Source: Salipiger profundus (GTDB taxonomy: Bacteria > Pseudomonadota > Alphaproteobacteria > Rhodobacterales > Rhodobacteraceae). Taken from it: a stretch of 64,000 bases of DNA. Under the pieces are notes generated by a model. It had not been told where the DNA came from, did no database searches, and saw only the letters and a program-made list of their open reading frames with translations. Made by a program: the position numbers and the translations under genes. The stretch spans positions 3,241,501 to 3,305,500 of the forward strand of contig NZ_CP014796.1 in NCBI RefSeq assembly GCF_001969385.1, given 5' to 3'. The number at the start of each line of letters is the position of its first letter. Positions within the stretch are counted from its first letter, which is position 1. Below, piece by piece: positions 17,148-36,129 of this stretch.

Positions 17148-17527
17148 GCGCTTCTCACCGGTGGCCTCTCGCTCCGATGTCACGGTGCGTGCAGGGGTCG
17201 CACGCGCGAGGCTCCAGGCCTGACCGATCCCGCGCTCCGGGCCGAACGCTCTCTCCTTCTCCCAAATGTATCGCGATCTGGCCGCCAAGACGGCGACGTT
17301 CCGGGCTTGCAGTCGGCGTTTCTCTGTTCGCGGAGCGCGTCGGGGCGCCCGTCTGCGCCGCGACCGTTACCGCAATCGAATCCGATCTGTCCGACGCTTG
17401 AAAGTCGTCCATCGCAGCCGGCCAACCGGCGTGCGGCCCGGCGCATGTCGGCGAAGGACTGGCAGCCACCGGTTTGGAAAATATTTTAAACGTATGAAAA
17501 TAATAGGTAAATAAAGAGTTCCTGAAA

Positions 17528-17548
17528 ATGTCAGGTCCGTGTTGACAT
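17528..17548. promoter_or_regulatory. Operator palindrome copy 1 with -35 box
   Basis: ATGTCA-N9-TGACAT (half-sites 17528-17533 and 17543-17548). The right half overlaps a consensus -35 box TTGACA (17542-17547). With TACATT at 17566-17571 (18-base spacer) this forms a sigma-70-type promoter for the sugar ABC operon. An identical palindrome lies 48 bases downstream. Confidence 0.8.
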
Positions 17549-17575
17549 AAGTAAAGAGAGCGGCCTACATTTCAA

Positions 17576-17596
17576 ATGTCAGATTGAAGATGACAT
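17576..17596. promoter_or_regulatory. Operator palindrome copy 2, over the expected transcription start
   Basis: ATGTCA-N9-TGACAT (half-sites 17576-17581 and 17591-17596), identical half-sites and spacing to copy 1 but a different N9. It covers the expected +1 region of the TTGACA/TACATT promoter, a classic repressor position. The SorC-type regulator at the end of this gene set (24717-26774) is the likely ligand-responsive binder; that link is inference. Confidence 0.8.
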
Positions 17597-17629
17597 ATGT
17601 TCAGTCGACATGAGGAGAGGGAGGAAGAC

Positions 17630-19111
17630 ATGACCAAGCCGCTGCTCGAGGCGAAGGGCTTCAGGAAGTCCTTCGGCGGAGTGCCCGCCCTGAAGGACGG
17701 ACGCTTCACGCTGGAGCGCGGCTCCGTGCATGCCCTCTGCGGTGGCAACGGCGCGGGCAAATCGACCTTTCTCAAGATCATCATGGGCATCCATCACGCC
17801 GATGCGGGCACCCTGCTGCGCAACGGCTCCGAGATCAGCTTCGCCGACCCGGCCGAAGCGCTCGCGAACGGGATTTCCATCATCGAGCAGGAGCTCAGCC
17901 CTGTCCCCGCGATGTCGGTGGCCGAGAACATCTACCTCGGGCGCGAGCCGGTCGGTCTGTTCGGCCGGATCGACTTCCGCACGATGAACCGCAACGCGCA
18001 GGAGCTGCTCGACGGTTTCCGCTTCGGCATCCGTGCCGACACGATGATGATGGACCTCACGGTCGCCCAGACCCAGCTTGTCGAGATCGCCAAGGCGCTC
18101 AGCTACGATGCCGAGGTCATCATCATGGACGAGCCGACATCGGCGCTTGGCGAGGCAGAGGCCGACCAGCTGTTCGAGGCGGTCGAGACGCTGAAGGCGC
18201 GGGGCAAGGGGGTGATCTACGTCAGCCACCGACTGTCCGAGATCTTCACGATCTGCGACAGCTACACGGTTTTCCGCGACGGGTCCTTCGTCGAGGAGGG
18301 GGCGCTTGCCGACATCGACAAGGAACGGCTCATCAACCTGATCGTCGGTCGGCCGCTGACCGAGGAATTCGTCAAGGAGAACGCGCCCGGAACCGAAAGC
18401 ACCCTCTCGGTCAGCGGGCTTTCGGCCGCGCATGGCGTCCGCGACGTGACCTTCTCCGCACGGCGCGGCGAGATCCTCGCGCTCTACGGGCTCATGGGCT
18501 CGGGGCGCTCGGAGATTTTCGACCGGCTGTTCGGACTGTCGGACCAGACCGACGGGCAGATCGTCATCGAGGGCGCCGAGGCGCGGATCCGGACCCCGAA
18601 CGACGCGATTGCGGCGGGGCTCGCCTACGTGACCGAGGACCGCAAGCGCTCGGGCCTGGTGCTCACCGGTGACGTGCGGGACAACCTCTGCCTCGCGACC
18701 CTCGACCGGATGTCGGCGGGCCAGGTCATGAACGCCCGGGCCGAGGGCGATGCCGCCGCCCGGATGATCGACACGCTGAACATCAAGACCGCGTCGGACC
18801 GGCTCGGGGTGTCGAACCTGTCGGGCGGCAACCAGCAGAAGGTTGTTCTTGGGAAGTGGTTCCTGACCGAGCCCCGCATCCTGCTGCTCGACGAGCCGAC
18901 CCGTGGTGTCGACGTCGGCGCGAAACGTGAAATCTATCGCGTGATGTCCGATTTCACCCGTCAGGGCGGAACCGTCATCATGATCTCCTCCGAGACCGAC
19001 GAAGTGCTGGGGATGGCCGACCGGGCCATCGTGATGCGCGACGGGCGGGTCGCCGGGGAACTGGAACGGGCCGAGATGTCGGCCGAGAAACTGCTGCACC
19101 TGGCGGCCTGA
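17630..19111 (+). CDS. Sugar ABC transporter ATP-binding protein (RbsA/MglA type)
   Basis: A 493-residue protein with two ABC domains. The first has Walker A GGNGAGKST (residues 38-46) and Walker B VIIMDEPTSALG. The second has a degenerate P-loop (GLMGSGRSE), an intact signature LSGGNQQKV and LLLDEPTRGVD, as in RbsA, MglA and XylG. ATG 17630 is preferred over an in-frame ATG 33 bases upstream because GGGAGGAAG lies just before it. It is the first gene of the operon controlled by the twin-palindrome promoter and energises uptake of a monosaccharide or polyol. Confidence 0.94.
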   Translation: MTKPLLEAKGFRKSFGGVPALKDGRFTLERGSVHALCGGNGAGKSTFLKIIMGIHHADAGTLLRNGSEISFADPAEALANGISIIEQELSPVPAMSVAENIYLGREPVGLFGRIDFRTMNRNAQELLDGFRFGIRADTMMMDLTVAQTQLVEIAKALSYDAEVIIMDEPTSALGEAEADQLFEAVETLKARGKGVIYVSHRLSEIFTICDSYTVFRDGSFVEEGALADIDKERLINLIVGRPLTEEFVKENAPGTESTLSVSGLSAAHGVRDVTFSARRGEILALYGLMGSGRSEIFDRLFGLSDQTDGQIVIEGAEARIRTPNDAIAAGLAYVTEDRKRSGLVLTGDVRDNLCLATLDRMSAGQVMNARAEGDAAARMIDTLNIKTASDRLGVSNLSGGNQQKVVLGKWFLTEPRILLLDEPTRGVDVGAKREIYRVMSDFTRQGGTVIMISSETDEVLGMADRAIVMRDGRVAGELERAEMSAEKLLHLAA

Positions 19112-19179
19112 GCCGCCGCCGCGCGTGCATGGCGCCGGCCCCGCAACTCGTGGCGGGGCGCACCAATGGGAGGAACACC

Positions 19180-20205
19180 GTGAAAGAGCAAGTCAAAGCC
19201 GCAACACCAGCCGGCGCGGGGGCGGAGCAACGTCAGACGCTTTCGGAGCGGATCGGACCGGTGGCGCAGCGCTACGGCATCCTGATCGCGCTGATCGTCC
19301 TCTGCGTCGTGCTGTCGGTGGTGAACGAGAATTTCCTGAGCTCGCGCAACATCATCAACGTGCTGCGTCAGACCTCGATCAACGGCATCCTCGCCATCGG
19401 CATGACCTTCGTCATCCTGACCCGGGGCATCGACCTGTCGGTCGGTTCGGTGGTCGCGCTCGCCGGGGTGGTCTCCGCGAGCTTCGCCACGACCTCGGCG
19501 TCGGGCTTCATTCCCGGCGCGCCCTACTTCGCGCTGCTGCCGCTCGTCATCGGTCTCGTGACCGGGATCGCCATGGGCGCGCTCTCGGGGCTTGCCGTCG
19601 CGCGCTATGCGGTGCCGGCCTTCGTGGCAACGCTGGGGATGCTCTCGGCGGCGCGCGGGCTCACGCTGATCTATTCTGGCGGCCGTCCGATCCCGGCGCT
19701 CACCGATGGCTATCGCTGGATCGGGACCGGCGACATCGCCGGCATCCCGGTGCCGATCATTCTCTTCGCGCTGATCTTCGGGCTGTCCCACTTCGTGCTG
19801 ACCCGCACGCGGTTCGGTCGCCACGTCTACGCGGTCGGGGGCAACCCCCATGCCGCGAAGGTCTCGGGGCTCTCGGTCAACCGGATCCGCTTCGCGGTCT
19901 ACGCCATCTCGGGCGCGCTGGCGGGCATCGCCGGCATGATCCTGGCGGCGCGCACCGGGTCGGCCCTGCCGCAGGCCGGTGTCGCCTACGAGCTCGACGC
20001 CATCGCGGCCGTGGTCATCGGCGGCACCAGCCTGTCGGGCGGGATCGGCCGGGTCAGCGGCACGGTGATCGGCGCGCTGCTCATCGGCGTGATGAACAAC
20101 GGTCTCGATCTGCTCGGGGTCGAATCCTACTACCAGCAGGTCATCAAGGGCGCCCTCATCGTCGCCGCGGTGATGCTGGATCGGTCCCGCAAGACCGAGC
20201 TCTGA
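19180..20205 (+). CDS. Sugar ABC transporter permease (RbsC type)
   Basis: About 341 residues with some ten hydrophobic helices. The ribose-permease signatures NFLSSRNIINVLRQTSINGI and RGIDLSVGSVVALAGV are followed by GGNPHAAKVSGLSV and GGTSLSGGIGRVSGTVIGALLIGVMNNGL. A GTG start at 19180 is chosen for its GGGAGGA site; an upstream in-frame ATG at 19129 would add a 17-residue tail. It forms a homodimeric channel with the preceding ATPase. Confidence 0.94.
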   Translation: MKEQVKAATPAGAGAEQRQTLSERIGPVAQRYGILIALIVLCVVLSVVNENFLSSRNIINVLRQTSINGILAIGMTFVILTRGIDLSVGSVVALAGVVSASFATTSASGFIPGAPYFALLPLVIGLVTGIAMGALSGLAVARYAVPAFVATLGMLSAARGLTLIYSGGRPIPALTDGYRWIGTGDIAGIPVPIILFALIFGLSHFVLTRTRFGRHVYAVGGNPHAAKVSGLSVNRIRFAVYAISGALAGIAGMILAARTGSALPQAGVAYELDAIAAVVIGGTSLSGGIGRVSGTVIGALLIGVMNNGLDLLGVESYYQQVIKGALIVAAVMLDRSRKTEL

Positions 20206-20295: not shown

Positions 20296-21291
20296 ATGAC
20301 GATCAAGAAGCTCATCAGCACGGCGAGCGCGGCAGCGCTCGGCCTGACGCTCGCCACGACGGCGAGCGCGCAGGACAAGATCGAGATCGGCGCGGCCGTC
20401 TACGGCCTCAACGCGGAGTTCATGCAGCTCTGGGCCGACGCCGCCGAGAACCACCCCGCGGTGCAGTCGGGTCTCGTCGACCTGACGGTGTTCGACGGCC
20501 GTTACGACGCGCTCGTCCAGCAGGACCAGTTCGAGACGATGATCACGCAGGGCTTTGACGCCATCGTCTTCGTGCCGATCGACATCGACGCCGGCGCCAC
20601 CGCCGTCGAGCTTGCCAGCGAGGCGGGCATCCCGGTGGTCGGATCGAACACGCAGGTCAACAGCGACCTGCTGACCGCCTACGTCGGCTCGGACGACGTG
20701 CAGGCCGGCTACATGGAAGCCAAGTCGGTTCTGGACGAGATGAACTGCGAGGGCGACGTGGTCATCATCGAGGGCCCGATCGGCCAGTCGGCGCAGATCC
20801 AGCGTGGCGAGGGCAATGAAAAGGCCCTGTCCGAATGCCCGGACGTCGAGGTTCTCGAGCAGCAGACCGCCAACTGGTCGCGGGCCGAGGCGCAGAGCCT
20901 GATGGAGAACTGGCTGACCTCGCACGGCAGCGACATCAAGGGTGTGATCGCCCAGAACGACGAGATGGCGCTTGGCGCGATCGAGGCGATCAAGGCCGCG
21001 GGCATGGACGTCAACGACTTCGCGATCGCGGGTGTCGACGGTGTGACCGACGCGCTGCGCGCGGTGAAGGCCGGCGAGATGGCCTCGATCCTGCAGGACG
21101 GTGCGGCGCAGGCCCAGGGCGCGATCGACGTGGCGATCAAGGCCGTGAAGCCGGATTACGAGCCGATGTCGGAGATCTGGGAGCAGTATCCCGAGATGTC
21201 CTGGGAAGACGGGTCCAAGTCGCAGTACGACGTGCCGTGGACGCCGGTCACCAGCGACAACGTCGACGCGCTTCTCGAGCAGCGCCAGTGA
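20296..21291 (+). CDS. Sugar ABC transporter periplasmic binding protein (ribose-binding type)
   Basis: A 331-residue binding protein with a Sec signal peptide (cleavage after about residue 24, TTASA). The two-lobe type I fold is shown by IEIGAAVYGLNAEFMQLW, FDAIVFVPIDIDAGATAVELA, GIPVVGSNTQVNSDLLTAYVGSDD and AIAGVDGVTDALRAVKAGEM. A GGGAGG site lies 10 bases upstream. The ligand is probably a small sugar alcohol or ketose, in line with the SDR and DhaK-family kinases that follow. The exact sugar is not known. Confidence 0.93.
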   Translation: MTIKKLISTASAAALGLTLATTASAQDKIEIGAAVYGLNAEFMQLWADAAENHPAVQSGLVDLTVFDGRYDALVQQDQFETMITQGFDAIVFVPIDIDAGATAVELASEAGIPVVGSNTQVNSDLLTAYVGSDDVQAGYMEAKSVLDEMNCEGDVVIIEGPIGQSAQIQRGEGNEKALSECPDVEVLEQQTANWSRAEAQSLMENWLTSHGSDIKGVIAQNDEMALGAIEAIKAAGMDVNDFAIAGVDGVTDALRAVKAGEMASILQDGAAQAQGAIDVAIKAVKPDYEPMSEIWEQYPEMSWEDGSKSQYDVPWTPVTSDNVDALLEQRQ

Positions 21292-21424: not shown

Positions 21425-22183
21425 ATGGCTGCTCCTCTGGATTTCTCCCTGGCGGGCAAGACCGCCATCGTCACCGGTGCCGCCTCGGGCATCGGGGCGG
21501 CAATCGCCGAGGCTTTTTCCTCGAAGGGCGCCCGCGTCGCGCTGCTCGACATGAACCTCGAGGCGGCAACGTCGCGCGCCGGGACGCTTCCGGGCGAGGC
21601 TCGTGCATTTGCCTGCAACGTGACCGACGCCGAGAGCATCGCGCAGGCGGTCCAGGACGTGATCAGTGCCTTCGGCGGCATCGACATCCTCGTCAATTCC
21701 GCCGGCATCGTCGACCTCGCCCCGGCCGAGGACCTGTCGGCAGCCGCATGGTCCCGCACCATCGACGTCAACCTGACCGGCAGCTTCACCATGGCGCAGG
21801 CCGTGGGCCGCGAGATGATCAGGGCCGGCAAGGGCGGGCGGATCATCAACCTCGCCAGCCAGGCCGGCTCGGTGGCGATCGACGGGCACGTTGCCTATTC
21901 CGCCTCGAAGTTCGCGATCATCGGTGTCACCAAGTCGCTGGCGCTCGAATGGGGCAAGCATGACATCACGGTCAACTCGATCTCGCCGACCGTCGTTCTC
22001 ACCGAGCTCGGCCGCAAGGCCTGGGACGGCCCCAAGGGCGAGGCGATGAAGGCGCAGATCCCGTCCGGCCGCTTCGCAGAGCCGGAAGAGATTGCCGCGA
22101 CGGCGGTGTTCCTCGCGTCGGAGGCTGCGGCAATGATCAACGGGGCCGATCTTCTCGTCGACGGCGGCTACACGGTGAAATGA
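21425..22183 (+). CDS. Short-chain dehydrogenase/reductase, polyol dehydrogenase-like
   Basis: A 252-residue classical SDR. The NAD(P) motif is TGAASGIG (about residues 18-25), the structural motif is NSAGI, and the active site has Ser (NLASQAG) and Tyr-x-x-x-Lys (AYSASK). The SPTVVLTELGRKAW stretch and overall style recall sugar-alcohol dehydrogenases such as D-threitol dehydrogenase (from memory, not checked). It probably oxidises the imported polyol to a ketose that the next gene phosphorylates. Its stop overlaps the kinase start (ATGATG). Confidence 0.88.
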   Translation: MAAPLDFSLAGKTAIVTGAASGIGAAIAEAFSSKGARVALLDMNLEAATSRAGTLPGEARAFACNVTDAESIAQAVQDVISAFGGIDILVNSAGIVDLAPAEDLSAAAWSRTIDVNLTGSFTMAQAVGREMIRAGKGGRIINLASQAGSVAIDGHVAYSASKFAIIGVTKSLALEWGKHDITVNSISPTVVLTELGRKAWDGPKGEAMKAQIPSGRFAEPEEIAATAVFLASEAAAMINGADLLVDGGYTVK

Positions 22184-23964
22184 TGAAGGACGACGACGTA
22201 ACTCAAGCGAAGGGGGCTGCCATGCAGCGGTTCATCAATAATCCCGACGATCTCGTCGACGAGACGGTGGCGGGCTTCGTGAAGGCCCATGGGGCGCTGG
22301 TCCGGAAGGACCCGCTCAACGCACGCGTCGTGGTGTCGCGCTTCGCCCCGCAGGAGGGCAAGGTTGGGATCGTGACCGGTGGCGGCTCGGGCCACGAACC
22401 CGCGTTCATCGGCTACACCGGGCGCAATCTCGTCGATGCGGTGGCGGTGGGTGAGCTCTTCTCCTCGCCGACGGCGAAGAGCTTCGCCGATGCGATCCGT
22501 GCCGCCGACGGCGGCGCCGGGGTGGCGGTGCTCTACGGCAACTATGCCGGCGACAACATGAACGTGCGGATGGCATCGGAAATGGTGTCGCCTGAGGGCA
22601 TCGAGGTGGCGACCGTGGTCGCCAACGACGATGTCTGCTCGGCGCCGCTGTCCGAGCGCGAGAAGCGGCGCGGGGTCGCGGGCGAGATCTTCATGTGGAA
22701 GATCGGCGGCGCCAGGGCGGCGCAGGGCGGCTCGCTCGCCGAGGTGCAGGCCGCGGCGCAGAAGGCGGTCGACGCCTGCCGGTCCGTGGGCGTCGGTCTC
22801 GGCCCCTGCACGCTTCCCGCCGTCGGCCATCCGAACTTCGACATCGAACCCGGCACGATGGAGGTCGGGATCGGCCACCACGGGGAGCCGGGCACCCGGA
22901 TCGAGCCGCTCAAGACCGCCGACGAGGTGGCCGACGACATGCTCGAGATCGTGCTCGACGATCACCAGCTGCCCGAGGGAACCGAGGTTGCGGTGCTGGT
23001 CTCGGGCCTTGGCGCCACGCCTGTGAACGAGCTTTATGTCCTTTACGACCGCATCGAGGTCGGTCTCGAGAAGGCCGGTCTCAGGGTGCACCGCGCCTTC
23101 GTCGGGGATTACTTCACCTCGCTCGAGATGGTCGGTGCGACGCTCACGGTCATGGCGCTCGACGCGGAGCTCAAGGAACTGATCGACGTCGAGTGCGCGT
23201 CACCCGGGATGACGGTGATCGGCACCACGACGCAGCCCGTCGGAACCGTCGCCGCACCGCGCCAGCGTGCGGCCGCGGCCTCCGGCGCCACGCGCGACGT
23301 GCCGCGTGCGCCCGAGGCCGCCGAGGGTGCGCCTGCCGTGCAGCTCGCCGGGGCATCGCCGATCGTCGAGGAGCTTGCCGAGGTGGTCGTGGCGAACAAG
23401 GCGCGCCTGTCCGAGATCGACGGGCTGATCGGCGACGGCGACCACGGCATCAACATGGCCAAGGGCTTCGGACGGGCCGCCGAGCGCATCAAGGGGCAGT
23501 CGCTGTCGCTCGCCGAGGGCTTCTCCGTGCTGTCCGACGTGCTGATGTCGGAGATCGGCGGCTCGATGGGCCCGCTCTACGGCTTCATGTTCCAGAACAT
23601 GGCGCTGGCCGTGGAAGGGCGCAAGGCGATCGACGCCGACGGTTTCTCGGCGATGATCAACGCCGGGCTTGCCGGGGTGCGTTCGACCGGCTCGGCTGAG
23701 GTCGGGGACAAGACGTTGATCGACTGCTTCGTGCCCGCCGTCGAGGCCTTCGATGCCTCCCGGGAGCAGGGCTTTGCCGCGGCGCTCGACGCCATGGCGA
23801 AGGCTGCCGAAGAGGGCCGCGACAGCACCGTTGACCTCGTGGCGAAGCTCGGTCGGGCCAGCCGGCTGGGCGAACGCTCGCGCGGTGTTCTGGATGCCGG
23901 GGCCACGTCGTGCTGCCTCATCCTCACCGAGCTTGGCGCGGGTTTCGCGCGCCGGTTGCCCTGA
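22180..23964 (+). CDS. Fused dihydroxyacetone-type kinase (DhaK-DhaL), probable ketose kinase
   Basis: A 594-residue ATP-dependent kinase. The DhaK half (about residues 16-350) keeps the hemiaminal-forming His234 (GHHGEPG), the general-base His72 (GGGSGHEP) and Asp125 (NYAGDNMN). A Pro/Ala-rich linker (about 352-392) leads to the DhaL half (393-594), with Mg-binding acidic residues Asp414, Asp419 and Asp421 (IDGLIGDGDHG) and GSMGPLYG. This is the ATP-using form that needs no PTS partner. Relatives phosphorylate dihydroxyacetone, erythrulose or apulose. The start overlaps the SDR stop; an in-frame ATG at 22222 is the alternative. Confidence 0.92.
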   Translation: MMKDDDVTQAKGAAMQRFINNPDDLVDETVAGFVKAHGALVRKDPLNARVVVSRFAPQEGKVGIVTGGGSGHEPAFIGYTGRNLVDAVAVGELFSSPTAKSFADAIRAADGGAGVAVLYGNYAGDNMNVRMASEMVSPEGIEVATVVANDDVCSAPLSEREKRRGVAGEIFMWKIGGARAAQGGSLAEVQAAAQKAVDACRSVGVGLGPCTLPAVGHPNFDIEPGTMEVGIGHHGEPGTRIEPLKTADEVADDMLEIVLDDHQLPEGTEVAVLVSGLGATPVNELYVLYDRIEVGLEKAGLRVHRAFVGDYFTSLEMVGATLTVMALDAELKELIDVECASPGMTVIGTTTQPVGTVAAPRQRAAAASGATRDVPRAPEAAEGAPAVQLAGASPIVEELAEVVVANKARLSEIDGLIGDGDHGINMAKGFGRAAERIKGQSLSLAEGFSVLSDVLMSEIGGSMGPLYGFMFQNMALAVEGRKAIDADGFSAMINAGLAGVRSTGSAEVGDKTLIDCFVPAVEAFDASREQGFAAALDAMAKAAEEGRDSTVDLVAKLGRASRLGERSRGVLDAGATSCCLILTELGAGFARRLP

Positions 23965-24057: not shown

Positions 24058-24717
24058 ATGCGTCCATTCACCTTCCATGACCTCACCGACCTGTTCCGCG
24101 CGTTCGCCGATCGCATGATCGCCGAGCGCGACATGCTCGCGGAACTCGACGGTGAGATCGGCGACGCGGATCACGGCGCCGCGATGGCCGTCGGTTTCGA
24201 TGCGGCGGCCCGCGCGCTGTTCGATGCTTCTCCCGAAAACCAGACACTTTCGCAGGGGTTCGGTCTTGCGGCGCGTTCGCTCCTGAACGCCGTCGGCGCG
24301 ACCACCGGACCGCTCTATGCCAGTGCCCTCCTGCGTGCCGGCCCGGTGTTCGGCAACCTGTCCGAAGCTCCGTTCGACCAGCTTCCCCGCATGGTCATCG
24401 CCATGTCCGAAGGGATCGAGGCGCGTGGCCACGGCAAGCCCGGTGACAAGACGATGGTCGACGCATGGGCGCCGGCGGCCCACGCCGCGCGCAAGGGGAT
24501 CGACGCCGGTCAGGACACTTGCGCCATCCTGCTGGCCTGCGCGCGGGCCGCGTCCGAGGGTGCCGAGTCGACGCGTGCGATGATGGCGGCCAAGGGCCGG
24601 GCGGCCCGGCTCGGGCCGCGCAGCATCGGGCACCTCGACCCGGGCGCGGTGTCGGCGGCGTCGCTCCTCGATGTCCTCGCCGACTGGGCCGGGCGCGCCG
24701 TCGAGAGGCGCGACTGA
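24058..24717 (+). CDS. Stand-alone DhaL-type kinase subunit
   Basis: A 219-residue DhaL-family protein, the nucleotide-binding half of dihydroxyacetone-type kinases. Mg-binding Asp31, Asp36 and Asp38 are present (LDGEIGDADHG), as are the nucleotide loop (GATTGPLYA) and KTMVDAWAPA. The ATG at 24058 gives normal family length; an upstream in-frame ATG at 24022 adds 12 unlikely residues. In PTS-linked systems DhaL is recharged by DhaM, but no DhaM or PTS gene is visible here. Its stop overlaps the start of the SorC-DhaK gene (TGATG), so the two are made together and DhaL is the obvious partner of that protein's DhaK domain. Confidence 0.88.
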   Translation: MRPFTFHDLTDLFRAFADRMIAERDMLAELDGEIGDADHGAAMAVGFDAAARALFDASPENQTLSQGFGLAARSLLNAVGATTGPLYASALLRAGPVFGNLSEAPFDQLPRMVIAMSEGIEARGHGKPGDKTMVDAWAPAAHAARKGIDAGQDTCAILLACARAASEGAESTRAMMAAKGRAARLGPRSIGHLDPGAVSAASLLDVLADWAGRAVERRD

Positions 24718-26774
24718 TGGCGCAGCGCACCTCAACCCGAGGCGCCGGGGCCAATTCCTCGGCAAGCGCGCCGCCGTTGCGGTTCGGAGACGATCCCCTG
24801 CTCTGGGCGGCCTGGCTCTACTACGAGGAAGGGCTGACGCAGGGCGAGATCGCGACCCGCATGGGGGTCTCGCGCCCCTCGGTGAACGCCTACCTCGCCG
24901 ACGCGAGGACGCGGGGCATCGTCTCCATCGAGATCGACCCCGAGAAATATCGGACCCTCAGTTTCGCGCGGGCGCTGCGCGACCACTTCGGTCTCGCCGA
25001 CTGTCTGGTGATCCCGTCGAGCGGCAGCGACAGCCCGCTCGTCGAACGGCTCGGCGCGGCGGCGGGGCAGGTGCTGAGCCGCCAGATCCAGTCCGGCGAC
25101 ACCATCGCCGTCACGTGGGGGCGCACGGTGCTTGCGGCTGCCAATCATATCGAGCGCCGTGGGCTGCGCGATCTGCGGGTGGTGCAGGCGACCGGTGGCA
25201 CCACCGCCAAGATCCCATGGACTCCCGAGGCCTGCGCCACCCGGCTCGCCGAGGCGCTCGGTGCGCGCTGCATCCCGCTGTCGTCCCCGGCCGTCGTCTC
25301 GTCACCCGAGGTGCGCGACCTGCTCGTGCACGAACCGGTGCTTGCCGAGCAGATGGACGTGCTGGCCGAGGCCAACCGGATCATCCTCGGGATTTCGTCG
25401 CTGCGGCCCGAGAGCACCATTCACACCAGCGGCTTCTTCGACGGCGTGGCGATGCACGAGCATTACCACGAGGCCGTCGGCAGCATCGCCGGGCGGTTGA
25501 TCTCGGCGCGTGGCGAGGCGGTGGAGGGGCCGCTCGAAGGCCGGACCATCGGCCTCGACCTCTCGGCGATCCGCCGCATTCCGCATCGCATCGGTGTCGC
25601 GGGCGGAATGGACAAGGTGCAGGCCATCCTCGCAGCGCTGCGCGGCGGCTACGTCAATGTCATGGTGACCGACGCCGACACGGCGCGCGCGATCCTGACC
25701 TCGGAAGGCTACGAGGACAAACCCGCACGGCGCGCGGAGGCCACGCCGGTCGCGCTGCCGGAGCGGCTTCAGGTCAAGAAATTCCTCAACCGTCCGCAGG
25801 ACGCGGTCGATGAAACCGTCGCCGGGGCGCTGCTTGCGCACGAGGGGCTGCTGTTGCCCGTCGAGAGCGCCCCCCGCGCCCTGCGAGCGGCGTGTGGCCC
25901 GCGCGAGGGCAAGGTCGGGCTGGTCATCGGGGGCGGGTCTGGCCACGAGCCGGGGTTCTTCGGCTACGTCGGGCAGGGGCTTGCCGACGCGGTTGCCATC
26001 GGCAATGTCTTCGCCGCGCCACCGCCCGATCCGATCCTCGCCGCGACGCTGGCGGCCGACGGTGGGGCCGGGGTGCTCCATATCTTCGGGAACTTCTCGG
26101 GCGACCTGATGAACTTCGAGATGGCCGCGGAAATGGCGCAGGCCCAGGACGTTCCGGTGCGCACGGTGGTGACCACCGACGACATCGCCTCTGCCCCCGT
26201 CGACGCGCGGTCGGCGCGCCGGGGCGTGGCGGGGAACGTCTTCGTCTTCAAGGTCGCCGGGGCGGCATGCGACCGGATGCTGCCGCTCGACGCCTGCGCC
26301 GCGGTGGCGCGGCGGGCCAGCCAGCGGTGCTTCACCATGGGGGTCGCGCTGGAGCCGGGGGCCTCGCTCGAGACGCGGCGGCCGAGTTTCCGGCTTGGTC
26401 CGGACGACATGGAAATCGGGGTCGGCGTGCACGGCGAGCCGGGCATCGCGCGCGCCAAGCTCGCGACTGCCGACGAGACCGCCGACCTGATCGTCGACCG
26501 CATCCTCGACGAGATGCGCCCCTCCGAGGGCGACCGGGTTGCGATCCTGGTGAATTCGCTGGGCGGCACGCCGCAGATGGAGCTCTACATCCTGAACCGC
26601 AGGCTCCGGCAGCGGTTGCAGGCGCGGGGGATCACCGTGCACCGCACCCTGATCGGGCACTACTACACGTCGCTCGACATGGCCGGCGTCTCGATCAGCA
26701 TGCTGCATCTCGATGACGAGCTCCGGGAACTGCTCGACCATCCCTGCAAGAGCCCCGCGCTGACGATCGGTTGA
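24717..26774 (+). CDS. SorC-type sugar-responsive regulator fused to a complete DhaK kinase domain
   Basis: A 685-residue two-part protein. Residues about 30-75 are a SorC/DeoR-type DNA-binding domain (YYEEGLTQGEIATRMGVSRP, then VNAYLADARTRGIVSIEI). Residues about 78-330 are the SorC sugar-binding domain (GDTIAVTWGRTVLAAANHI, VQATGG, GVAGGMDKVQAILAALRGGYVNVMVTD). After a short linker, residues about 346-685 are a full DhaK domain. It keeps His410 (GGGSGHEP), Asp463 (NFSGDLMNFEMA) and the substrate-binding His572 (VHGEPG), so it looks catalytically intact. It has no DhaL half; the preceding gene supplies one. The ORF can be read about 84 codons further upstream, but that part overlaps dhaL in another frame and is rejected. 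I infer a regulator that binds the twin palindromes and senses or phosphorylates the pathway ketose. Automated pipelines have, from memory, named such fusions, but I know of no characterised one. Confidence 0.9.
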   Translation: MAQRTSTRGAGANSSASAPPLRFGDDPLLWAAWLYYEEGLTQGEIATRMGVSRPSVNAYLADARTRGIVSIEIDPEKYRTLSFARALRDHFGLADCLVIPSSGSDSPLVERLGAAAGQVLSRQIQSGDTIAVTWGRTVLAAANHIERRGLRDLRVVQATGGTTAKIPWTPEACATRLAEALGARCIPLSSPAVVSSPEVRDLLVHEPVLAEQMDVLAEANRIILGISSLRPESTIHTSGFFDGVAMHEHYHEAVGSIAGRLISARGEAVEGPLEGRTIGLDLSAIRRIPHRIGVAGGMDKVQAILAALRGGYVNVMVTDADTARAILTSEGYEDKPARRAEATPVALPERLQVKKFLNRPQDAVDETVAGALLAHEGLLLPVESAPRALRAACGPREGKVGLVIGGGSGHEPGFFGYVGQGLADAVAIGNVFAAPPPDPILAATLAADGGAGVLHIFGNFSGDLMNFEMAAEMAQAQDVPVRTVVTTDDIASAPVDARSARRGVAGNVFVFKVAGAACDRMLPLDACAAVARRASQRCFTMGVALEPGASLETRRPSFRLGPDDMEIGVGVHGEPGIARAKLATADETADLIVDRILDEMRPSEGDRVAILVNSLGGTPQMELYILNRRLRQRLQARGITVHRTLIGHYYTSLDMAGVSISMLHLDDELRELLDHPCKSPALTIG

Positions 26775-26836: not shown

Positions 26837-28009
26837 TTACGGGCGCGGAGCCTGGTGACCGCCCGCGAGATCCTCTCCGGCGACGAGGATCCGCCGGGGC
26901 GTGCTGGTCAGGCGGCGGCAGCCCTCTGCCGTGATCTCGACCGTTTCCGAAAGCGCGAGCCCGCGTGCGGTCGTGTAGAGGTGGAAGACCTGACCCTCGC
27001 GGAAGCGCCACGTGGCCCCCGGATGCAGGCTCACCATCGTTTCCGAAGACCGCGGGGTCTTGGCGTAGATCCCCAGCTGGTAGCCGGTGATGTTGGGATA
27101 GCTTTCACGCAGCCCTTCCGCGCGCATCCCGTCACGCAGCACCGCGTCGGCCTCGCGTGCCTCGACGCCCGGGCGGATCGCGGCGAACTGCGCGTCCTGC
27201 AACGCGGCGATCCGGGCCATGACCTCGCGGTCCTCGAGCGAGGGCGCGCCGAGGCTGATCGACCGCATGAACCGCGAGGAGTAGAGGCGGACGCGCGGCA
27301 CCAGCTCGACGTGCAGGATGTCGCCCGACCCGAGCCGGTCCTCGGTGAAGGTCGCGTGAAGGAACCCCATGCCGTGGCCGTCGCGGCCCTGGGCGGCACG
27401 CCGTGCGATCGAGATCGGACCGACCCAGTAATCGTCCGCGCCGTTCACGAGGTAGTGGTTCGCGCCGATGGCCGAGGCGTCGCGCGCCCGCATGCCCGGC
27501 GCGATGCCTTGCGTGATCGCGGCCATGGCGCCGTCGCCGATGGCGGCGGCCTGCGCGATCAGGTCGATCTCGTGGCGGTCCTTGACGTCGCGGATCCGGT
27601 TCGAGATTTCATGCAGGTTGCGCCATTCGACGCCGGGCACGAGCTCGGTCAGGCGGTCCCGGGTGAAGGCGGTGAACCCGAACGAGGTGAAATCGGCCCC
27701 GATGCGGGTGACACCGAGCCCCTTCAGGACCTCGGCCATCGTGGCATGGGCATCCTCGTGGTCGGCATATGTGACCACCTCTCCGACCCAGGTGGCGGCG
27801 CGGCAGGGCACCTCGTCGATGGCGCGGAGCACCCAGACCGGGTCGCCCTCCAGGGGCAGGACGCAGCCGCGATAGAAGGTCTCCGAGATGGTGAAGCCCG
27901 TCAGCCAGTGCAGCATCTCCGCGTGGTCGCAGAGAAAGGCCTCGGCCCCGGCCGCCCGCATGGCGGCGCGGAGCGTTTCGACGCGGGTTGCGAAGGGAGC
28001 AGGGATCAT
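26837..28009 (-). CDS. M24 (creatinase/Xaa-Pro peptidase) family protein lacking metal ligands
   Basis: A 390-residue pita-bread-fold protein: N-terminal creatinase-type domain about residues 8-140, catalytic-fold domain about 150-380. The usual metal ligands are absent. The first Asp pair region reads HVELVPRVRLYSSRFMRS, the His region reads TGYQLGIYAKTP, and only the late Glu (SETVEIT) is kept. It should therefore be metal-independent like creatinase, or have a changed role. The ATG at 28009 overlaps the preceding M20 stop (ATGA); the longer frame is antisense-like overlap. It is the last gene of an oligopeptide-type ABC operon. Confidence 0.85.
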   Translation of the reverse strand: MIPAPFATRVETLRAAMRAAGAEAFLCDHAEMLHWLTGFTISETFYRGCVLPLEGDPVWVLRAIDEVPCRAATWVGEVVTYADHEDAHATMAEVLKGLGVTRIGADFTSFGFTAFTRDRLTELVPGVEWRNLHEISNRIRDVKDRHEIDLIAQAAAIGDGAMAAITQGIAPGMRARDASAIGANHYLVNGADDYWVGPISIARRAAQGRDGHGMGFLHATFTEDRLGSGDILHVELVPRVRLYSSRFMRSISLGAPSLEDREVMARIAALQDAQFAAIRPGVEAREADAVLRDGMRAEGLRESYPNITGYQLGIYAKTPRSSETMVSLHPGATWRFREGQVFHLYTTARGLALSETVEITAEGCRRLTSTPRRILVAGEDLAGGHQAPRP

Positions 28010-29232
28010 GCGACCGGTTCCAGCCCGCAGATCTCGGCGATGGTGAGAATGTAGATCTTCACGCAGTCGATGAACTGGCTCTTGCGCACGCGCTCGTCCG
28101 GCATGGTGTTGAACTCGCCGCCGGGTCCGCAGACGACGCCCTCGATGCCGGCGGCGGAGAGATGCGCCGCGTCGGTCCCGAAGAAGCAGGCCGGTGCAAT
28201 GGGGCCGGTCGGCTGGGGCAAGCCCCGGACGGTCTCGTAGGCCGCGTTCACCGCGCGGACGATGTCGGAGTCGCGCGGCACCTCGAACGGCGGCATCTGT
28301 GGCTTGTTCTTGCGCTGGTCGTAGCTGTCGATCTCCCACTTCAGGCCGGGGAACTCGAGCTCGAGCGCGCGGAGCATGGTCCGCATGTCCTCCATCACCG
28401 ACTCCACCGATTGCGACGGCGCGTAGCGGCAGGTGCCGAGGATCTTGGCGCGGTCCGCGACCTGCGGGGGGCGCCACTCGTGGAACTCGTCGCCGAGACC
28501 GGCGCGCACCACGCCGACATGGCCCCGGTTCACCGCCTTGTGGTCATCGGTGGCGGCACCGCTGAAGGTCATGTTGTTGATCCGCGGAACGAGCGCCGCC
28601 GCCGCCGCGAGCGCATCGCACGCCTCGCCGCGCTTCGAGACGTGGCGCGTGTCGCCGGTCAGCTCGATCTGGTAGGAGAACGCGCCCGAGTGCAGGCAGA
28701 GCGCCTGGATGTCGGTCGGCTCGGAGTTGACGAAGTAGTCCGCCGTGACGCCCTGCTCGATCATCCGGACCGTGCCGATGCCGCCCTGCAACTCGCCGAT
28801 CACGAACGACAGGATGACGTCGCCCTTCGGCTTCAGCCCGGCCTTGAGGATGGTTTCGACGGCGCAGAGATAGGCCGCGTCGCCGGATTTCATGTTCGAC
28901 ACGCCGATGCCGTAGATGAACTCGTCGTCGATCACGCCGCCCCAGGGATCGACGGTCCAGCCGGTGGTGACGGGGTTGGTGTCGAGGTGGCCGTTGAACA
29001 GCAGGCTCTTGCCGCCGCCGGTGCCGCGCAGAGTGCCGATGGCGTTCACCCGCTCGCCCTCGACCGGCTGCAGCATCGCCTCGAGCCCCAGCCCCTCGAG
29101 AATGCCGTGCATGTGCTCCGCGAGCTTCCGCTCGCCCTCGGTCTCGGAGTAGCTCTTGTGCTGCACCATGTCGGCCAGCCGGGCGAGGCAGGCCTCTTCG
29201 TCGACGGATGCAATGAGGTTTTCGGGGGTCAT
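28006..29232 (-). CDS. M20-fold peptidase/deacylase-like protein with altered metal site
   Basis: A 408-residue M20 (ArgE/DapE-like) protein. The first motif is intact (NGHLDTNP), but the bridging Asp motif reads GVSNMKSG (Asp to Asn), the DEE motif reads GELQGG (second Glu lost), and the late His position reads GGEFNTMPDERV (His to Asn). Three of the five usual ligand positions are thus changed. The start at 29232 overlaps the ATPase stop (ATGA), and its own stop overlaps the M24 start. It should act on the substrate imported by this operon, but normal zinc hydrolysis is doubtful. Confidence 0.85.
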   Translation of the reverse strand: MTPENLIASVDEEACLARLADMVQHKSYSETEGERKLAEHMHGILEGLGLEAMLQPVEGERVNAIGTLRGTGGGKSLLFNGHLDTNPVTTGWTVDPWGGVIDDEFIYGIGVSNMKSGDAAYLCAVETILKAGLKPKGDVILSFVIGELQGGIGTVRMIEQGVTADYFVNSEPTDIQALCLHSGAFSYQIELTGDTRHVSKRGEACDALAAAAALVPRINNMTFSGAATDDHKAVNRGHVGVVRAGLGDEFHEWRPPQVADRAKILGTCRYAPSQSVESVMEDMRTMLRALELEFPGLKWEIDSYDQRKNKPQMPPFEVPRDSDIVRAVNAAYETVRGLPQPTGPIAPACFFGTDAAHLSAAGIEGVVCGPGGEFNTMPDERVRKSQFIDCVKIYILTIAEICGLEPVA

Positions 29233-31283
29233 CGGGCGGTCTCCGTGGTCTTGGTGGTCTTGAACTGCCAGATCGGGGCGACGGCGCGGAGCGCCTCGGG
29301 CTCGATGTGGCAGAGGATGTCGTGGCCGGTTTCCGGCGTGCGGCGCGGCGGCCTTTGCCGGTCGCATTCCGGGCCGAGATGGCGCGGGCAGCGGCTGGCG
29401 AAGGGGCAGCCGGGCAGGTCCTCGGTGCGCTTCGGCAGAGACCCGGCGAGCCGCACGCGGCGGGTTTCGCTGTCGGGATCGACCGAGTGCGACGAGGACA
29501 GCAGCGCCTCGGTGTAGGGATGCCATGGCGCCGCATCGAGGGCGGAGGTCTCGCAGGTCTCGACCATCTCGCCGAGATACATGACCGCGACCCGGTCGGC
29601 GACGTGGCGCAGGATGCCGAGATCATGCGTGATGAACACCAGTGCCGCGCCGGTCTCCTTCTGGATCTCGCGCAGAAGCCGCACGATGGCAGCCTGCACA
29701 GCGGCATCGAGGCCCGAGGTGATCTCGTCGCAGATGATCACGTCGGGTTCGGCCGCGAGCGCGCGCGCGATCGCGACACGCTGCTTCTCCCCGCCGGACA
29801 GCTGGTGCGGGTAGCGCGTGGCGTAATCGGCGGGCAGGTGCACCCGTTCGAGAAGCTGGGCGATCTCGGCTGCGCGGGCCTTGCGGTCAAGGCCGGGCCG
29901 GAACAGGCGCAGTGGCCGCTCAAGGATCGTGGTGAGCGAATGCCGCGGGTTGAGCGAGCTGTCGGGGTTCTGGAAAATCGTCTGCACCCGCGACCGCCAC
30001 GCATCGCTGCGCGGGGCGACCGGGGCACCGTCGAGACGGGTTTCGCCGCTGAAATCCTGCAGACCCGAGAGCGCGCGGGCGAGCGAGGACTTGCCACAGC
30101 CGGATTCGCCGACCAGTGCCAGCGTCTCGCCGCGCCTGAGGCTGAAGGTCACGCCTTTCACCGCCCTGACCAGCGGGGTCTCGGCGCCGCGCAGGCGGTC
30201 GCGCAGCGTGGGGCGACCGTAGGTGACGCCGAGCGCGCCGACCTCGAGCAGCACGCTCTCCTGTCGCGGCGAGGCGACGACCGGCGGGGCCTCGGGGGCG
30301 GGCAGGTTCTCGCCACGGGCCACCCGTGCGCAGGCGATGTGACGGTCGCCGATGTCGCGCGGTCTGACCCGGTCGGCGTCGCAGATTTCGGGAGTGTGAT
30401 GCGGGCAGGAGGCGGCGAAGATGCAGGGCGGCATCTCGCCGCGCCGCGGCGCCGGCTTCGCGCCGCTGGTGGCAAGGCCGCGTCCGGTCCGGGCGTCGGA
30501 CGGGCGCGGCAGGCTGGCGAGCAGCGCCTGCGTATAGGGGTGCTTCGGGGCGCCGAAGACGGTCTCGACCGGGCCTTCCTCGACGATGCGGCCGCCGTAG
30601 ATGACCGCGACGCGATGCGCGATATCCGCCACCGTTCCAAGGTCATGGCTGATGAACAGGGCAGAGACGCCGGTCCGTGCCTGCAGTTCGCGGAAAAGGT
30701 CGAGCAGCGTGGCGGCGGTGGTGGCGTCGAGCGCCGAGGTCGGCTCGTCGAACAGGATCAGCTCGGGCTCGCAGGCGAAGGCCAGCGCGAGGACTACCCG
30801 CTGCTTCTCGCCGCCCGAGACCTCGTGCGGGTAGCGCGCCAGCATCGCGTCCGGGTCGGGCAGGCCGACCATCTCGATCAGTTCCACGGCCCGCGCGCGG
30901 CGCGCCTCGCGGCCCAGCGACGTGTGCCGCTCGAGCGTTTCGAGCAGGTGGTCGCCGAGGGTCTGCACCGGGTCGAGCGTGGTGGCGGCGTTCTGGAACA
31001 CCATGGCGATGCGCCGACCGCGCATGCCCACCATCCCGGCCTCGGACAGGGTCGTGATGTCATCGTCGCCGAGCCGGATGCTGCCGCGCTCCTCGGCCAC
31101 CTTGCCGGGCAGATCGCGGATGATCGCGTTCGCGAGCGAGGATTTCGCCGAGCCGCTTTCGCCGACGAGCCCGAGCACCTCGCCCCGGCCGATGTCGAGA
31201 AAGACGTCGTCGAGGATGCGCACCGGCCCGGTGGGGGTGTCGTAGTAGAGCGCGTAGTCACGGAGGGTGAGAGCGTTGGTCAT
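29229..31283 (-). CDS. Oligopeptide-type ABC transporter, fused double ATP-binding protein
   Basis: A 684-residue fusion of the two ATPases normally encoded as DppD and DppF. Domain one: Walker A GESGSAKSS (about 38-46; an Ala replaces the usual Gly before the Lys), signature VSGGEKQRV, Walker B LILFDEPTSALD. Domain two, from about residue 350: Walker A GESGCGKSS, signature LSGGEKQRV, Walker B VIICDEITSGLD. Both halves carry the C-terminal oligopeptide-transport tail with a Cys cluster (CIFAASCPHHTPEIC; CPFASRCPRHLGPEC), which may hold an Fe-S centre as in some Dpp/Opp ATPases. It overlaps the DppC-like start and the M20 start. Confidence 0.94.
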   Translation of the reverse strand: MTNALTLRDYALYYDTPTGPVRILDDVFLDIGRGEVLGLVGESGSAKSSLANAIIRDLPGKVAEERGSIRLGDDDITTLSEAGMVGMRGRRIAMVFQNAATTLDPVQTLGDHLLETLERHTSLGREARRARAVELIEMVGLPDPDAMLARYPHEVSGGEKQRVVLALAFACEPELILFDEPTSALDATTAATLLDLFRELQARTGVSALFISHDLGTVADIAHRVAVIYGGRIVEEGPVETVFGAPKHPYTQALLASLPRPSDARTGRGLATSGAKPAPRRGEMPPCIFAASCPHHTPEICDADRVRPRDIGDRHIACARVARGENLPAPEAPPVVASPRQESVLLEVGALGVTYGRPTLRDRLRGAETPLVRAVKGVTFSLRRGETLALVGESGCGKSSLARALSGLQDFSGETRLDGAPVAPRSDAWRSRVQTIFQNPDSSLNPRHSLTTILERPLRLFRPGLDRKARAAEIAQLLERVHLPADYATRYPHQLSGGEKQRVAIARALAAEPDVIICDEITSGLDAAVQAAIVRLLREIQKETGAALVFITHDLGILRHVADRVAVMYLGEMVETCETSALDAAPWHPYTEALLSSSHSVDPDSETRRVRLAGSLPKRTEDLPGCPFASRCPRHLGPECDRQRPPRRTPETGHDILCHIEPEALRAVAPIWQFKTTKTTETAR

Positions 31284-32113
31284 TAGGTCTCCGCCGTCTT
31301 GGGGTTCAGCACGTCACGCAGACCGTCGCCGAGCAGGTTGAACCCGATCGCGACGATGGCGATGGCGGCGCCGGGCACGGCCACGGGCCAGGGGCTGCGG
31401 AACAGGTGGTCGCGGGCTTCGGCGATCATCAGGCCCCACTCGGGGTCGGGCGGCTGCGCGCCGAGGCCGAGGAACGAGAGGGTGGCGAGCGTCATGATGG
31501 CAAAGGCCACGCGGATGGTGCCCTCGACGATCACCGGGGCGATGGTGTCGGGCAGGATTTCCGCCGCGACGATCCAGCCGAGGCTTTCGCCGCGTGCCTT
31601 GGCGGCGGCCACGTAGTCGAGGCTGCGCACCTGCAGCGTCACCGAGCGGGCGATGCGTGCCATGCCCGGGGCGAAGGCGATGCCGATCGCGAGCACGGCG
31701 TTGATCGAGGACGACCCGAGCACGGCGATGATCATCAGCGCGAAGAGCAGCGACGGGATCGCCATGATCGCGTCGGTGAGCCGCATCAGCGCTTCGTCGA
31801 CGATCCCGCCGAGGTAGCCCGAGAGCACTCCGATCACCGCCCCGGCGGCGGTGCCGATGAATGTGGCGAGCAGCGCGAGGAGCACCGTCGAGCGTGCGCC
31901 CACGAGGATGCGGCTCAGCAGGTCGCGGCCATACCAGTCGGCGCCGAGCGGGAACTCGAGCGAGGGCGCGGCGAAGCGCGCGTTGAAGTGGAAGGTCTCG
32001 GGGTCCTTCGGCGCGATCTCGGGGCCGAAGACGGCCGCGAACAGGACCAGCGAGCAGAGGATGAGCCCGAGGGCTCCCTGAGGATTGCGCAGCAGCGCCC
32101 GGAGCGTCTTCAT
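31283..32113 (-). CDS. Oligopeptide-type ABC transporter permease (DppC type)
   Basis: A 276-residue membrane protein with about six helices. The DppC signatures are GADWYGRDLLSRILVGARSTVLLAL, SLDYVAAAKARGESLGWIVAAEILPDTIAPVIVEGTIRVA (EAA loop) and TLSFLGLGAQPPDPEWGLMI. It overlaps both neighbours by one to four bases. Confidence 0.95.
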   Translation of the reverse strand: MKTLRALLRNPQGALGLILCSLVLFAAVFGPEIAPKDPETFHFNARFAAPSLEFPLGADWYGRDLLSRILVGARSTVLLALLATFIGTAAGAVIGVLSGYLGGIVDEALMRLTDAIMAIPSLLFALMIIAVLGSSSINAVLAIGIAFAPGMARIARSVTLQVRSLDYVAAAKARGESLGWIVAAEILPDTIAPVIVEGTIRVAFAIMTLATLSFLGLGAQPPDPEWGLMIAEARDHLFRSPWPVAVPGAAIAIVAIGFNLLGDGLRDVLNPKTAET

Positions 32114-33060
32114 TTGAACTGGATCCTCTTGTCGAGCGAAGCATAGGCAAGGTCTGCGGCGAGGTTCGCCAGCGCGTAGGTGAGCGCCATGATCAGCGCC
32201 CCGGCCTGCAGCATCGGCAGATCGCGGTTCTGGATGGCGAGGATCAGCTGCCGCCCGATGCCGGGAAAGGCGAAGACCTCCTCGACCACGATCACGCCGC
32301 CGATCAGGTAGCCGACGTCGAGCGCGATCACCGTGATCGCCGGCAGCATCGAGTTGCGCAGCGCGTGGTTGTAGATGACCTGCCGGCGGGACAGGCCGCG
32401 CAGCCGCGCCGCCCGGACGAAATCGCTCTGCATGGTGTCGACCATCTCGGAGCGCACCATCCGGCTGATGTGCGCGGTCAGGATGATCGCGAGCGTGATG
32501 ACCGGGAGTGCGATGTGGCGCAGCGCGTCCAGCGGATCTTCGGCAAAGGAGGTGTAGCCGGAGGCCGGGAACAGCCCGACCGAGGGTCCGGCAAGCCAGG
32601 CAAGCAGCAGCGTCGCCAGCACGAACTCGGGCAGCGACACGCCGAGGTAGCTTACCACCGACAGCCCGAGATCGGCGGGCCCGCCGCGCCGGGTGCCGGC
32701 GAGCACGCCGAGCGGAATGGCGATCACGCAGACCAGCAGGAGCGAGAGCGCGGCAAGGATGGCCGAGCGTCCGAAGGCGGCCATGATGGTCGGCCCCACC
32801 GGCTGGCTGGTGCGAAGCGACGTGCCGAAGTCGCCCTGGAAGGCGCTGGAGAGCCAGTGCCAGTACTGGACGAGGGCGGGCTGATCGAGCCCCAGCCGTT
32901 CGTTCAGTGCCGCGAGGGCCTCGGGCGTGGCGTATTCGCCGAGGATCATGGTTGCCGCGTTGGCGGGCAGAAGTTGCGTGACGCCGAAGACGATCAGCGA
33001 GACGAGGAAGGCCGTCAATGCCAGGTAGGCGAGACGGCGCAGCAGAAAGCTGGCCGACAT
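32110..33060 (-). CDS. Oligopeptide-type ABC transporter permease (DppB type)
   Basis: A 316-residue membrane protein of the DppB family (LLRRLAYLALTAFLVSLIVFGVTQLLP at the N-terminus; ARLRGLSRRQVIYNHALRNSMLPAITV as EAA loop; EEVFAFPGIGRQLILAI). The start at 33060 (MSASFLLRR) is chosen for an AGGAGA site; a longer frame adds a non-membrane tail. It is preceded on the message by a strong hairpin after the binding-protein gene. Confidence 0.94.
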   Translation of the reverse strand: MSASFLLRRLAYLALTAFLVSLIVFGVTQLLPANAATMILGEYATPEALAALNERLGLDQPALVQYWHWLSSAFQGDFGTSLRTSQPVGPTIMAAFGRSAILAALSLLLVCVIAIPLGVLAGTRRGGPADLGLSVVSYLGVSLPEFVLATLLLAWLAGPSVGLFPASGYTSFAEDPLDALRHIALPVITLAIILTAHISRMVRSEMVDTMQSDFVRAARLRGLSRRQVIYNHALRNSMLPAITVIALDVGYLIGGVIVVEEVFAFPGIGRQLILAIQNRDLPMLQAGALIMALTYALANLAADLAYASLDKRIQFK

Positions 33061-33113
33061 GGCAGGTCTCCTACGGATGCGCGACGTCTGGGCCGCGGCG
33101 ACATGGGACTGGT

Positions 33114-33138
33114 CCGGCGGCGCATGTGGCGCCGCCGG
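33114..33138 (-). other. Intercistronic hairpin after the peptide-binding-protein gene
   Basis: Perfect 10-bp stem CCGGCGGCGC (33114-33123), ATGTG loop, GCGCCGCCGG (33129-33138), in the 106-base gap between the binding protein and the DppB-type gene. Same placement as the hairpins at 12076, 38928, 44171 and 58291. Confidence 0.65.
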
Positions 33139-33166
33139 TCGTTGCATTTTCGGGTCGGGTGCGAGG

Positions 33167-36045: not shown

Positions 36046-36046
36046 A

Positions 36047-36056
36047 TCTATATAGA
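36047..36056. promoter_or_regulatory. TCTATATAGA palindrome in the GntR/M20 divergent promoter
   Basis: A perfect 10-bp palindrome in the 84-base A/T-rich gap between the M20 gene and the GntR gene. It lies two bases before the M20 start codon, so a bound protein would block transcription or translation initiation. The adjacent GntR/UTRA protein is the likely binder (inference). Confidence 0.5.
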
Positions 36057-36129
36057 AATACAGATGGACGAGGGTTGGCAAGTGTGTTTTCTGTGGAAAT
36101 ATTCAGCAGGATGAGAACAGGAGTTGGTC

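Follow-up and report, generated by a model that had tools for sequence, protein, structure and literature searches.

A SorC-type regulator and a DhaK domain on one chain

The DNA analyzed here, referred to as the window, is a 64,000-nucleotide stretch of the Salipiger profundus genome (NCBI RefSeq assembly GCF_001969385.1, contig NZ_CP014796.1). At the end of an operon on its forward strand, one frame joins a SorC-type transcriptional regulator to a DhaK domain, and two operator-like sites lie ahead of the operon (Table 1). An initial annotation made from the letters alone had described this 685-residue protein as a regulator fused to an intact kinase domain. The translation contained zero internal stops, and the domain search that the annotation had proposed recovered both parts in Pfam, Sugar-bind and then Dak1 (residues 371 to 681; E value, 8.7e-112). 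LsrR was aligned with the N-terminal part, helix-turn-helix (HTH) and sugar-binding domain in a single match, over residues 26 to 329 (E value, 3.6e-37), and DeoR (E value, 8e-33) and SorC were aligned over residues 30 to 327, HTH included. The fusion thereby shows the short HTH and following Sugar-bind domain that characterize the DeoR subfamily of the SorC family.

An AlphaFold2 model, built from an alignment of 37 fusions including that of the window, reached a mean predicted local distance difference test score (pLDDT) of 82.5 and a predicted template modeling score (pTM) of 0.70. The pLDDT fell below 50 at residues 1 to 24, 69 to 73, and 336 to 345. When the model was searched with Foldseek, E. 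coli DhaK (TMt, 0.85 to 0.87), DhaQ, DeoR, SorC, and LsrR were matched on the two halves; judging by their titles, the solved structures matched included DhaK-DhaR and DhaK-DhaL complexes. The predicted protein is one of two folded units with a loose linker between them.

Genome contigs were scanned for this architecture and 80 loci were retained, with more in existence; six plasmid loci were fetched in addition. Of the 80 retained contig loci, 66 carried a full-length fusion, 13 carried DhaK only, and the remaining one (L063) is probably a fusion cut at the contig end. All six plasmid loci held the full-length form, which brings the collection to 72 fusions besides that of the window. Both Sugar-bind and Dak1 were matched by 37/37 aligned members. 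A frameshift or assembly error at the junction, which the initial annotation had named among the findings that would undo its claim, is ruled out by the 72 further full-length proteins.

Conservation was counted as columns with an identical residue in at least 72 of the 73 fusions. Such columns made up 24 of 61 in the HTH, 43 of 247 in Sugar-bind, and 97 of 332 in DhaK, compared with 0 of 25 in the linker, whose span varied from 29 to 40 residues among the fusions. His56, Asp109, and the covalently binding His218 of E. coli DhaK, which we take to be its catalytic residues, aligned with His410, Asp463, and His572. The initial annotation had reported the last three as kept, and their equivalents were found in 73/73 fusions; on these residues, a degenerate kinase is rejected. 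Other positions differ from the E. coli enzyme. Lys104 is replaced by glycine in 73/73 fusions (Gly458 here), and Thr79-Ser80 is replaced by Ala-Ala in 16 fusions, including that of the window, and by Ser-Ser in 57. These changes hint at a substrate other than dihydroxyacetone. By its TIGR02363 score, the fused domain is a relative that is not certified as dihydroxyacetone specific. The second DhaK of the operon likewise has glycine at the Lys104 position (67/67), with Ser-Ser at that of Thr79-Ser80.

Full-length matches were defined by an E value of 1e-150 or better. The window's family had them in 7 of 394 genomes searched, with none in the only other genome of the window's genus in that draw. 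A second family gave matches in 37 of 297 genomes, and a phylum-wide draw gave matches in 5 of 398, all from these same two families. In a class-wide draw of 385 genomes, searched to 1e-60, both halves were matched only in the window's own genome. Among plasmids, 856 records matched, and in 102 of them a single place covered 80% or more of the query; the best 60 rows were inspected. The named carriers seen were Alphaproteobacteria, including plant-associated Sinorhizobium and Rhizobium and marine Thalassospira and Roseibium.

A midpoint-rooted tree was calculated from 69 DhaK domains, a thinned set comprising 36 of 73 fused domains, 11 of 67 of the operon's second kind, and 22 of 23 others, with one dropped. 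The fused domains and three others formed one supported group (100/95), and the second DhaK of the operon formed a separate group (100/100), which rules out derivation of the fusion from the operon's other DhaK. The three other members of the first group were L063 and the unfused copies of L031 and L043. The latter two loci belong to the 72 fusion loci and hold, close to the fused domain, a fusion-like DhaK copy without SorC (7222-9204 in L031 and 7696-8739 in L043) in place of the second DhaK. A possible explanation is that these copies lost the regulator part after duplication. One origin of the fusion with later duplication or loss would be the simplest reading of the tree, with two origins as the alternative.

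Operon organization and operator-like DNA

The operon runs from the ATPase, permease, and binding protein of an ABC transporter through a dehydrogenase and a DhaK-DhaL chain to a separate DhaL and the fusion. The longest frame of the ATPase begins within operator-like site 2, and the ATG at 17630, behind GGAGGA, appears the likelier start.

Table 1. Features of the fusion, its operon, and the region ahead of it
Feature	Position	Strand	Basis
SorC-DhaK fusion	24717..26774	+	685 aa; open frame, Pfam Sugar-bind and Dak1, 72 further full-length fusions
HTH DNA-binding part, residues 20-80	24774..24956	+	Column conservation; LsrR/DeoR/SorC HTH alignment
Sugar-bind effector domain, residues 81-327	24957..25697	+	PF04198, E 2e-60; DeoR, LsrR, SorC structure matches
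Linker, residues 328-352	25698..25772	+	Unconserved columns, variable length, low pLDDT
DhaK domain, residues 353-684, with His410, Asp463, His572	25773..26768	+	PF02733; E. coli DhaK structures
Operator-like site 1, core TGTCA-N9-TGACA 17529-17547	17523..17553		5/20 mismatches to GACAWWTGTC-N11-GACAWWTGTC
Promoter match TTGACA, 18-nt spacer, TACATT	17542..17571	+	Best of 4 promoter-like matches, 10/12; others 9/12
Operator-like site 2, core TGTCA-N9-TGACA 17577-17595	17571..17601		3/20 mismatches to GACAWWTGTC-N11-GACAWWTGTC
Sugar ABC transporter ATPase	17630..19111	+	PF00005; listed frame from 17597, ATG 17630 likelier start by eye
Sugar ABC transporter permease	19129..20205	+	PF02653, E 7.5e-48
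Sugar ABC transporter binding protein	20296..21291	+	PF13407, E 1.4e-51
Short-chain dehydrogenase, GolD/DthD family	21425..22183	+	NF005309, 376.7 bits, cutoff 286
Second kinase, DhaK-DhaL single chain	22180..23964	+	NF011049, 597.3 bits, cutoff 492
Separate DhaL, likely partner of fusion	24058..24717	+	PF02734, E 7e-42; TIGR02365, 167.4 bits, cutoff 138.3

The initial annotation had placed a DhaL gene beside the fusion, and the two do adjoin: in TGATG (24715-24719), the stop codon of the separate DhaL overlaps the start codon of the fusion as read by eye. Since the other DhaK in the window is already joined to a DhaL, this one is left to the fusion. Its aspartate metal motif reads IGDADHG, so that by sequence the fusion has the motif-bearing DhaL partner expected of a DhaK subunit, in a complex that is predicted. 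The survey of neighbors that the annotation had suggested showed the same pairing, with a DhaL2-type gene beside the fusion, in 70 of 72 loci, judged by the best BLAST label within 1.5 kb; in the other two (L002 and L039), contigs end close by. Among 84 genes labeled DhaL2, 79 had the expected aspartate motif, 3 had valine for isoleucine, and 2 had alanine for the motif glycine. A second DhaK, counted from 65% identity upward, was present in 66 of 72 loci. At this identity, it was not found in L002, which is a short contig, nor in L031, L043, L049, L056, and L057; for L049 and L057, other DhaKs lie elsewhere in the genome. The usual unit, as read from the genes, is therefore two complete kinases, one of which bears the regulator.

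The phosphotransfer subunit DhaM, which marks kinases dependent on the phosphotransferase system (PTS), gave 0 matches to TIGR02364 in the genome, and the same search matched 3 of 14 control genomes. The likely phosphate donor is therefore ATP and not the PTS. The family of the dehydrogenase and the transporter suggest a route from polyol to ketose, of the threitol/erythrulose or the glycerol/dihydroxyacetone kind. In Thalassospira marina (L089, 894-1661), the same operon has a divergent neighbor annotated as triose-phosphate isomerase, which could be the next step for the ketose phosphate. The window's own genome gave five DhaK-domain matches in total; on a second contig (L083), an unfused DhaK-DhaL chain stands beside a convergent SorC-type match with one stop codon.

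DNA at 17528-17596 had been put forward as the local operator region, and operator-like DNA is indeed present there: TGTCA-N9-TGACA occurs in three copies in the 5.42-Mb genome, two of which form the cores of sites 1 and 2, with the third inside open frames that were listed mechanically. Site 1 covers the -35 box TTGACA of the best promoter match, and site 2 starts where the -10 box ends. This placing of both sites is that of a repressor, as far as the promoter prediction goes. The count of the shorter form TGTC-N11-GACA in the window was not significant (2 compared with 0.89 expected; 24 of 100 shuffles reached 2), so the case for an operator depends on three other grounds: its position, how often the longer form occurs in the genome, and comparison across loci. 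On these grounds, a chance operator is rejected.

The comparison across loci used the DNA ahead of the transporter ATPase, in 53 regions of which 52 were near-unique. Of these 52, 38 contained GACATTTGTC exactly, in one orientation or the other; when segments were drawn at random from these loci, 15 times over, any 10-letter word reached at most 6 regions. Two GACAWWTGTC palindromes at a spacer of 11 (21 bp from center to center) fitted 53/53 regions within 5/20 mismatches (mean, 2.23), although the consensus being scored had been derived from these very regions. After single-base shuffling, with one shuffle per region or locus here and below, 1/53 fitted (mean, 8.28). Other spacers from 3 to 21 fitted 5 to 37 of the 53 (means, 5.1 to 6.8). 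This spacer comparison is independent of the consensus, as are 26 further loci, some of which had already been seen with a single palindrome. They yielded 17 sites within 4/20 mismatches, in 16 loci, compared with 0 in one shuffle each; among those with long flanks, the double site was found in 15/19. It tracked the unit where the gene order differs, standing ahead of the transporter operon in L042 and L044, where this operon is inverted, ahead of the second DhaK in L041 and in Sinorhizobium meliloti 1021 (L092), and just ahead of the fusion in L056. The window's two spacer-11 sites thus present, as sequence, the paired palindromic half-sites at a controlled promoter that are expected of the SorC family. 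The window's operon encodes no regulator besides the fusion, which is therefore the likely binder, and the double GACAWWTGTC palindrome is its likely operator.

Two further features flank the operon in the window. A 435-aa frame rich in GGxGxD-like repeats (15756-17063, +), by eye an RTX-type calcium-binding protein, ends about 460 bases ahead of the first operator-like site. On the other side, genes for a peptide-type ABC transporter and peptidase-like proteins, also assigned by eye, occupy 26837-36081 (-).

A candidate mechanism and its alternatives

We think it somewhat probable that the fusion has two roles, repressing the polyol/ketose operon that encodes it and serving as the substrate-binding subunit of a ketose kinase that uses ATP, and that repression is relieved by the phosphorylated product. 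Without sugar, a SorC-type tetramer would sit on two palindromes 21 bp apart and shut the promoter; the window has two such sites, one covering the -35 box and the other at the start site. The transporter would import a polyol, and the GolD/DthD-type dehydrogenase would convert it to a ketose of the dihydroxyacetone or erythrulose class. This ketose would be phosphorylated by the DhaK domain together with the DhaL beside it. Bound in the SorC pocket, the phosphorylated product would then release the promoter. The domains, catalytic residues, neighboring DhaL, and conserved paired palindromes are read from sequence; we infer that the fusion binds the palindromes, that it represses and does not activate, that it is active as a kinase, and that it senses the product, and likewise the identity of the substrate and any coupling of the domains.

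The initial annotation had suggested that the pathway ketose may bind in both the SorC pocket and the DhaK site. For the pocket, this is less likely. SorC-family effector domains are described as phosphosugar binding in the available part of PMC11229326, where CggR is relieved by dihydroxyacetone phosphate as well as by fructose 1,6-bisphosphate, and the kinase product is for this reason the better candidate.

Several observations weigh against the proposed mechanism. Binding, expression, and enzyme activity of the fusion are predicted, and the second kinase in the same operon could do the main work. The DhaK domain scored 356.9 bits with TIGR02363, below the equivalog cutoff of 406.25. The effector site of DeoR carries a Schiff-base lysine; Thr159 of the fusion aligns with it, and the pocket chemistry may differ from that of DeoR. 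Within 4/20 mismatches, the double site was not found in four loci with long flanks (L008, L040, L054, and L061; L008 and L054 have a single palindrome ahead of the second DhaK), nor in the short contig L002 and five of six short family loci. When 25 family genomes were scanned at 3 mismatches, matches occurred in 6/7 genomes with the fusion and in 9/18 without it, and only 3/7 had one at or near the fusion's operon (G000, G701, and G448, the last at 6.8 kb upstream). At this threshold, the pattern alone does not discriminate carriers of the fusion, and the four other fusion-bearing family genomes may use another operator. Some of the compared loci, in which regulators were not sought systematically, hold another regulator nearby that could be the binder instead.

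What the joining of the two halves contributes can be answered in several ways, and our confidence in the answers overlaps, because tethering does not preclude product sensing. The domains might be tethered yet independent, on one chain for coexpression only, with no signal beyond the metabolite pool. This explanation, which is compatible with product sensing, is possible but falls short of likely. It agrees with the flexible, unconserved linker, and we also count for it that the operon layout would already yield the same coexpression; that the halves remain joined in at least 72 collected fusions speaks for some benefit. On direct signaling between the halves, the indications are opposed, the linker favoring loose tethering and the long-kept fusion a benefit of joining. 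The initial annotation went further and suggested that DNA binding may be linked to kinase flux, and a variable, unconserved linker speaks against a rigid link of this kind. A self-contained switch is an unlikely refinement: the kinase half would make the phosphosugar that the joined repressor half reads, induction would follow local flux through the DNA-bound molecule itself, and docking of DhaL would add another input.

The fusion could also be a substrate- or partner-gated trigger enzyme, in which a filled DhaK site, or a DhaL docked on the DhaK domain, switches DNA binding, in the way that DhaK and DhaL act on DhaR in E. coli or proline acts on PutA. The active site kept in every fusion and the known DhaK-DhaR and DhaK-DhaL structures are consistent with such gating, and PutA represses its own regulon when proline is absent, according to the available part of PMC8249747. 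We nevertheless regard it as doubtful, given the range of linker lengths without a conserved column, the low model confidence in that segment, and the effector domain that the SorC half retains for itself. More improbable still is a DhaQ-like sensor, whose DhaK domain would bind the ketose without kinase activity while the DhaK-DhaL chain alone makes the product. The frequent second DhaK (66/72 loci), the Ala-Ala variant that the window's fusion shares, and Lactococcus DhaQ itself, a DhaK-fold coactivator by its structure title, would suit this idea. However, all 73 fusions keep the three catalytic residues, a DhaL with the aspartate metal motif stands beside the window's fusion, and the DhaQ model TIGR02362 gave 209.9 bits (cutoff, 413.25) compared with 356.9 for the DhaK model. 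Moreover, L049, L056, and L057 as fetched have no second DhaK to make the product, the elsewhere-encoded DhaKs of two of these genomes notwithstanding.

Relation to known systems

The fusion already carries a RefSeq product name, "bifunctional sugar-binding transcriptional regulator/dihydroxyacetone kinase subunit DhaK," and the proteins so named have the same architecture, with similar operons in five annotated records. The entry consists of the product name alone; a study of the fusion's function, operator, or mechanism was not found in the open-access literature searched, a scope that leaves subscription journals mostly outside. The architecture is therefore named but, as far as searched, unstudied. 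The initial annotation had missed this name and the second complete kinase of the operon; its observation is confirmed, and its interpretation is partly supported. New here are the two complete kinases in the operon and the candidate paired-palindrome operator.

B. subtilis DeoR, E. coli LsrR, and Klebsiella SorC share with the fusion an HTH, a sugar-binding domain, and paired half-operators, but their solved chains stop after the effector domain, where the fusion continues with a kinase subunit. In the available part of PMC11229326, the SorC regulators DeoR and CggR are described as tetramers on two half-operators.

A DhaK fold also serves gene control in the DhaQ/DhaS system of Lactococcus lactis. 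DhaQ is a separate coactivator without kinase activity; the fusion, unlike it, keeps the catalytic residues and has a neighboring DhaL.

Trigger enzymes, too, combine metabolic catalysis with gene control in a single protein; as E. coli cases, the available part of PMC8249747 names PutA, NadR, BirA, PepA, and PyrH. None of these five couples a SorC regulator with a ketose kinase. If the proposed mechanism is true, the fusion would be a natural case of a metabolite sensor, a DNA switch, and a metabolite-making or -using enzyme in one polypeptide. With a 31-bp candidate operator, the neighboring DhaL, and candidate ligands, it is directly testable whether enzyme flux sets transcription.

The closest comparison is with DhaK, DhaL, and DhaR of E. 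coli, where a single system likewise brings subunits of Dha kinase together with the control of their operon. DhaR is a separate protein that is bound and switched by the Dha kinase subunits, and the parallel drawn in the initial annotation is apt as an analogy. In E. coli, sensor, kinase, and regulator are separate proteins. DhaR controls dhaKLM (PMC6643234, available part). In the window, the DNA-binding part is instead the SorC-type half of the DhaK chain, there is no DhaM match, and the protein would represent a fused counterpart of the DhaK-DhaL-DhaR system.

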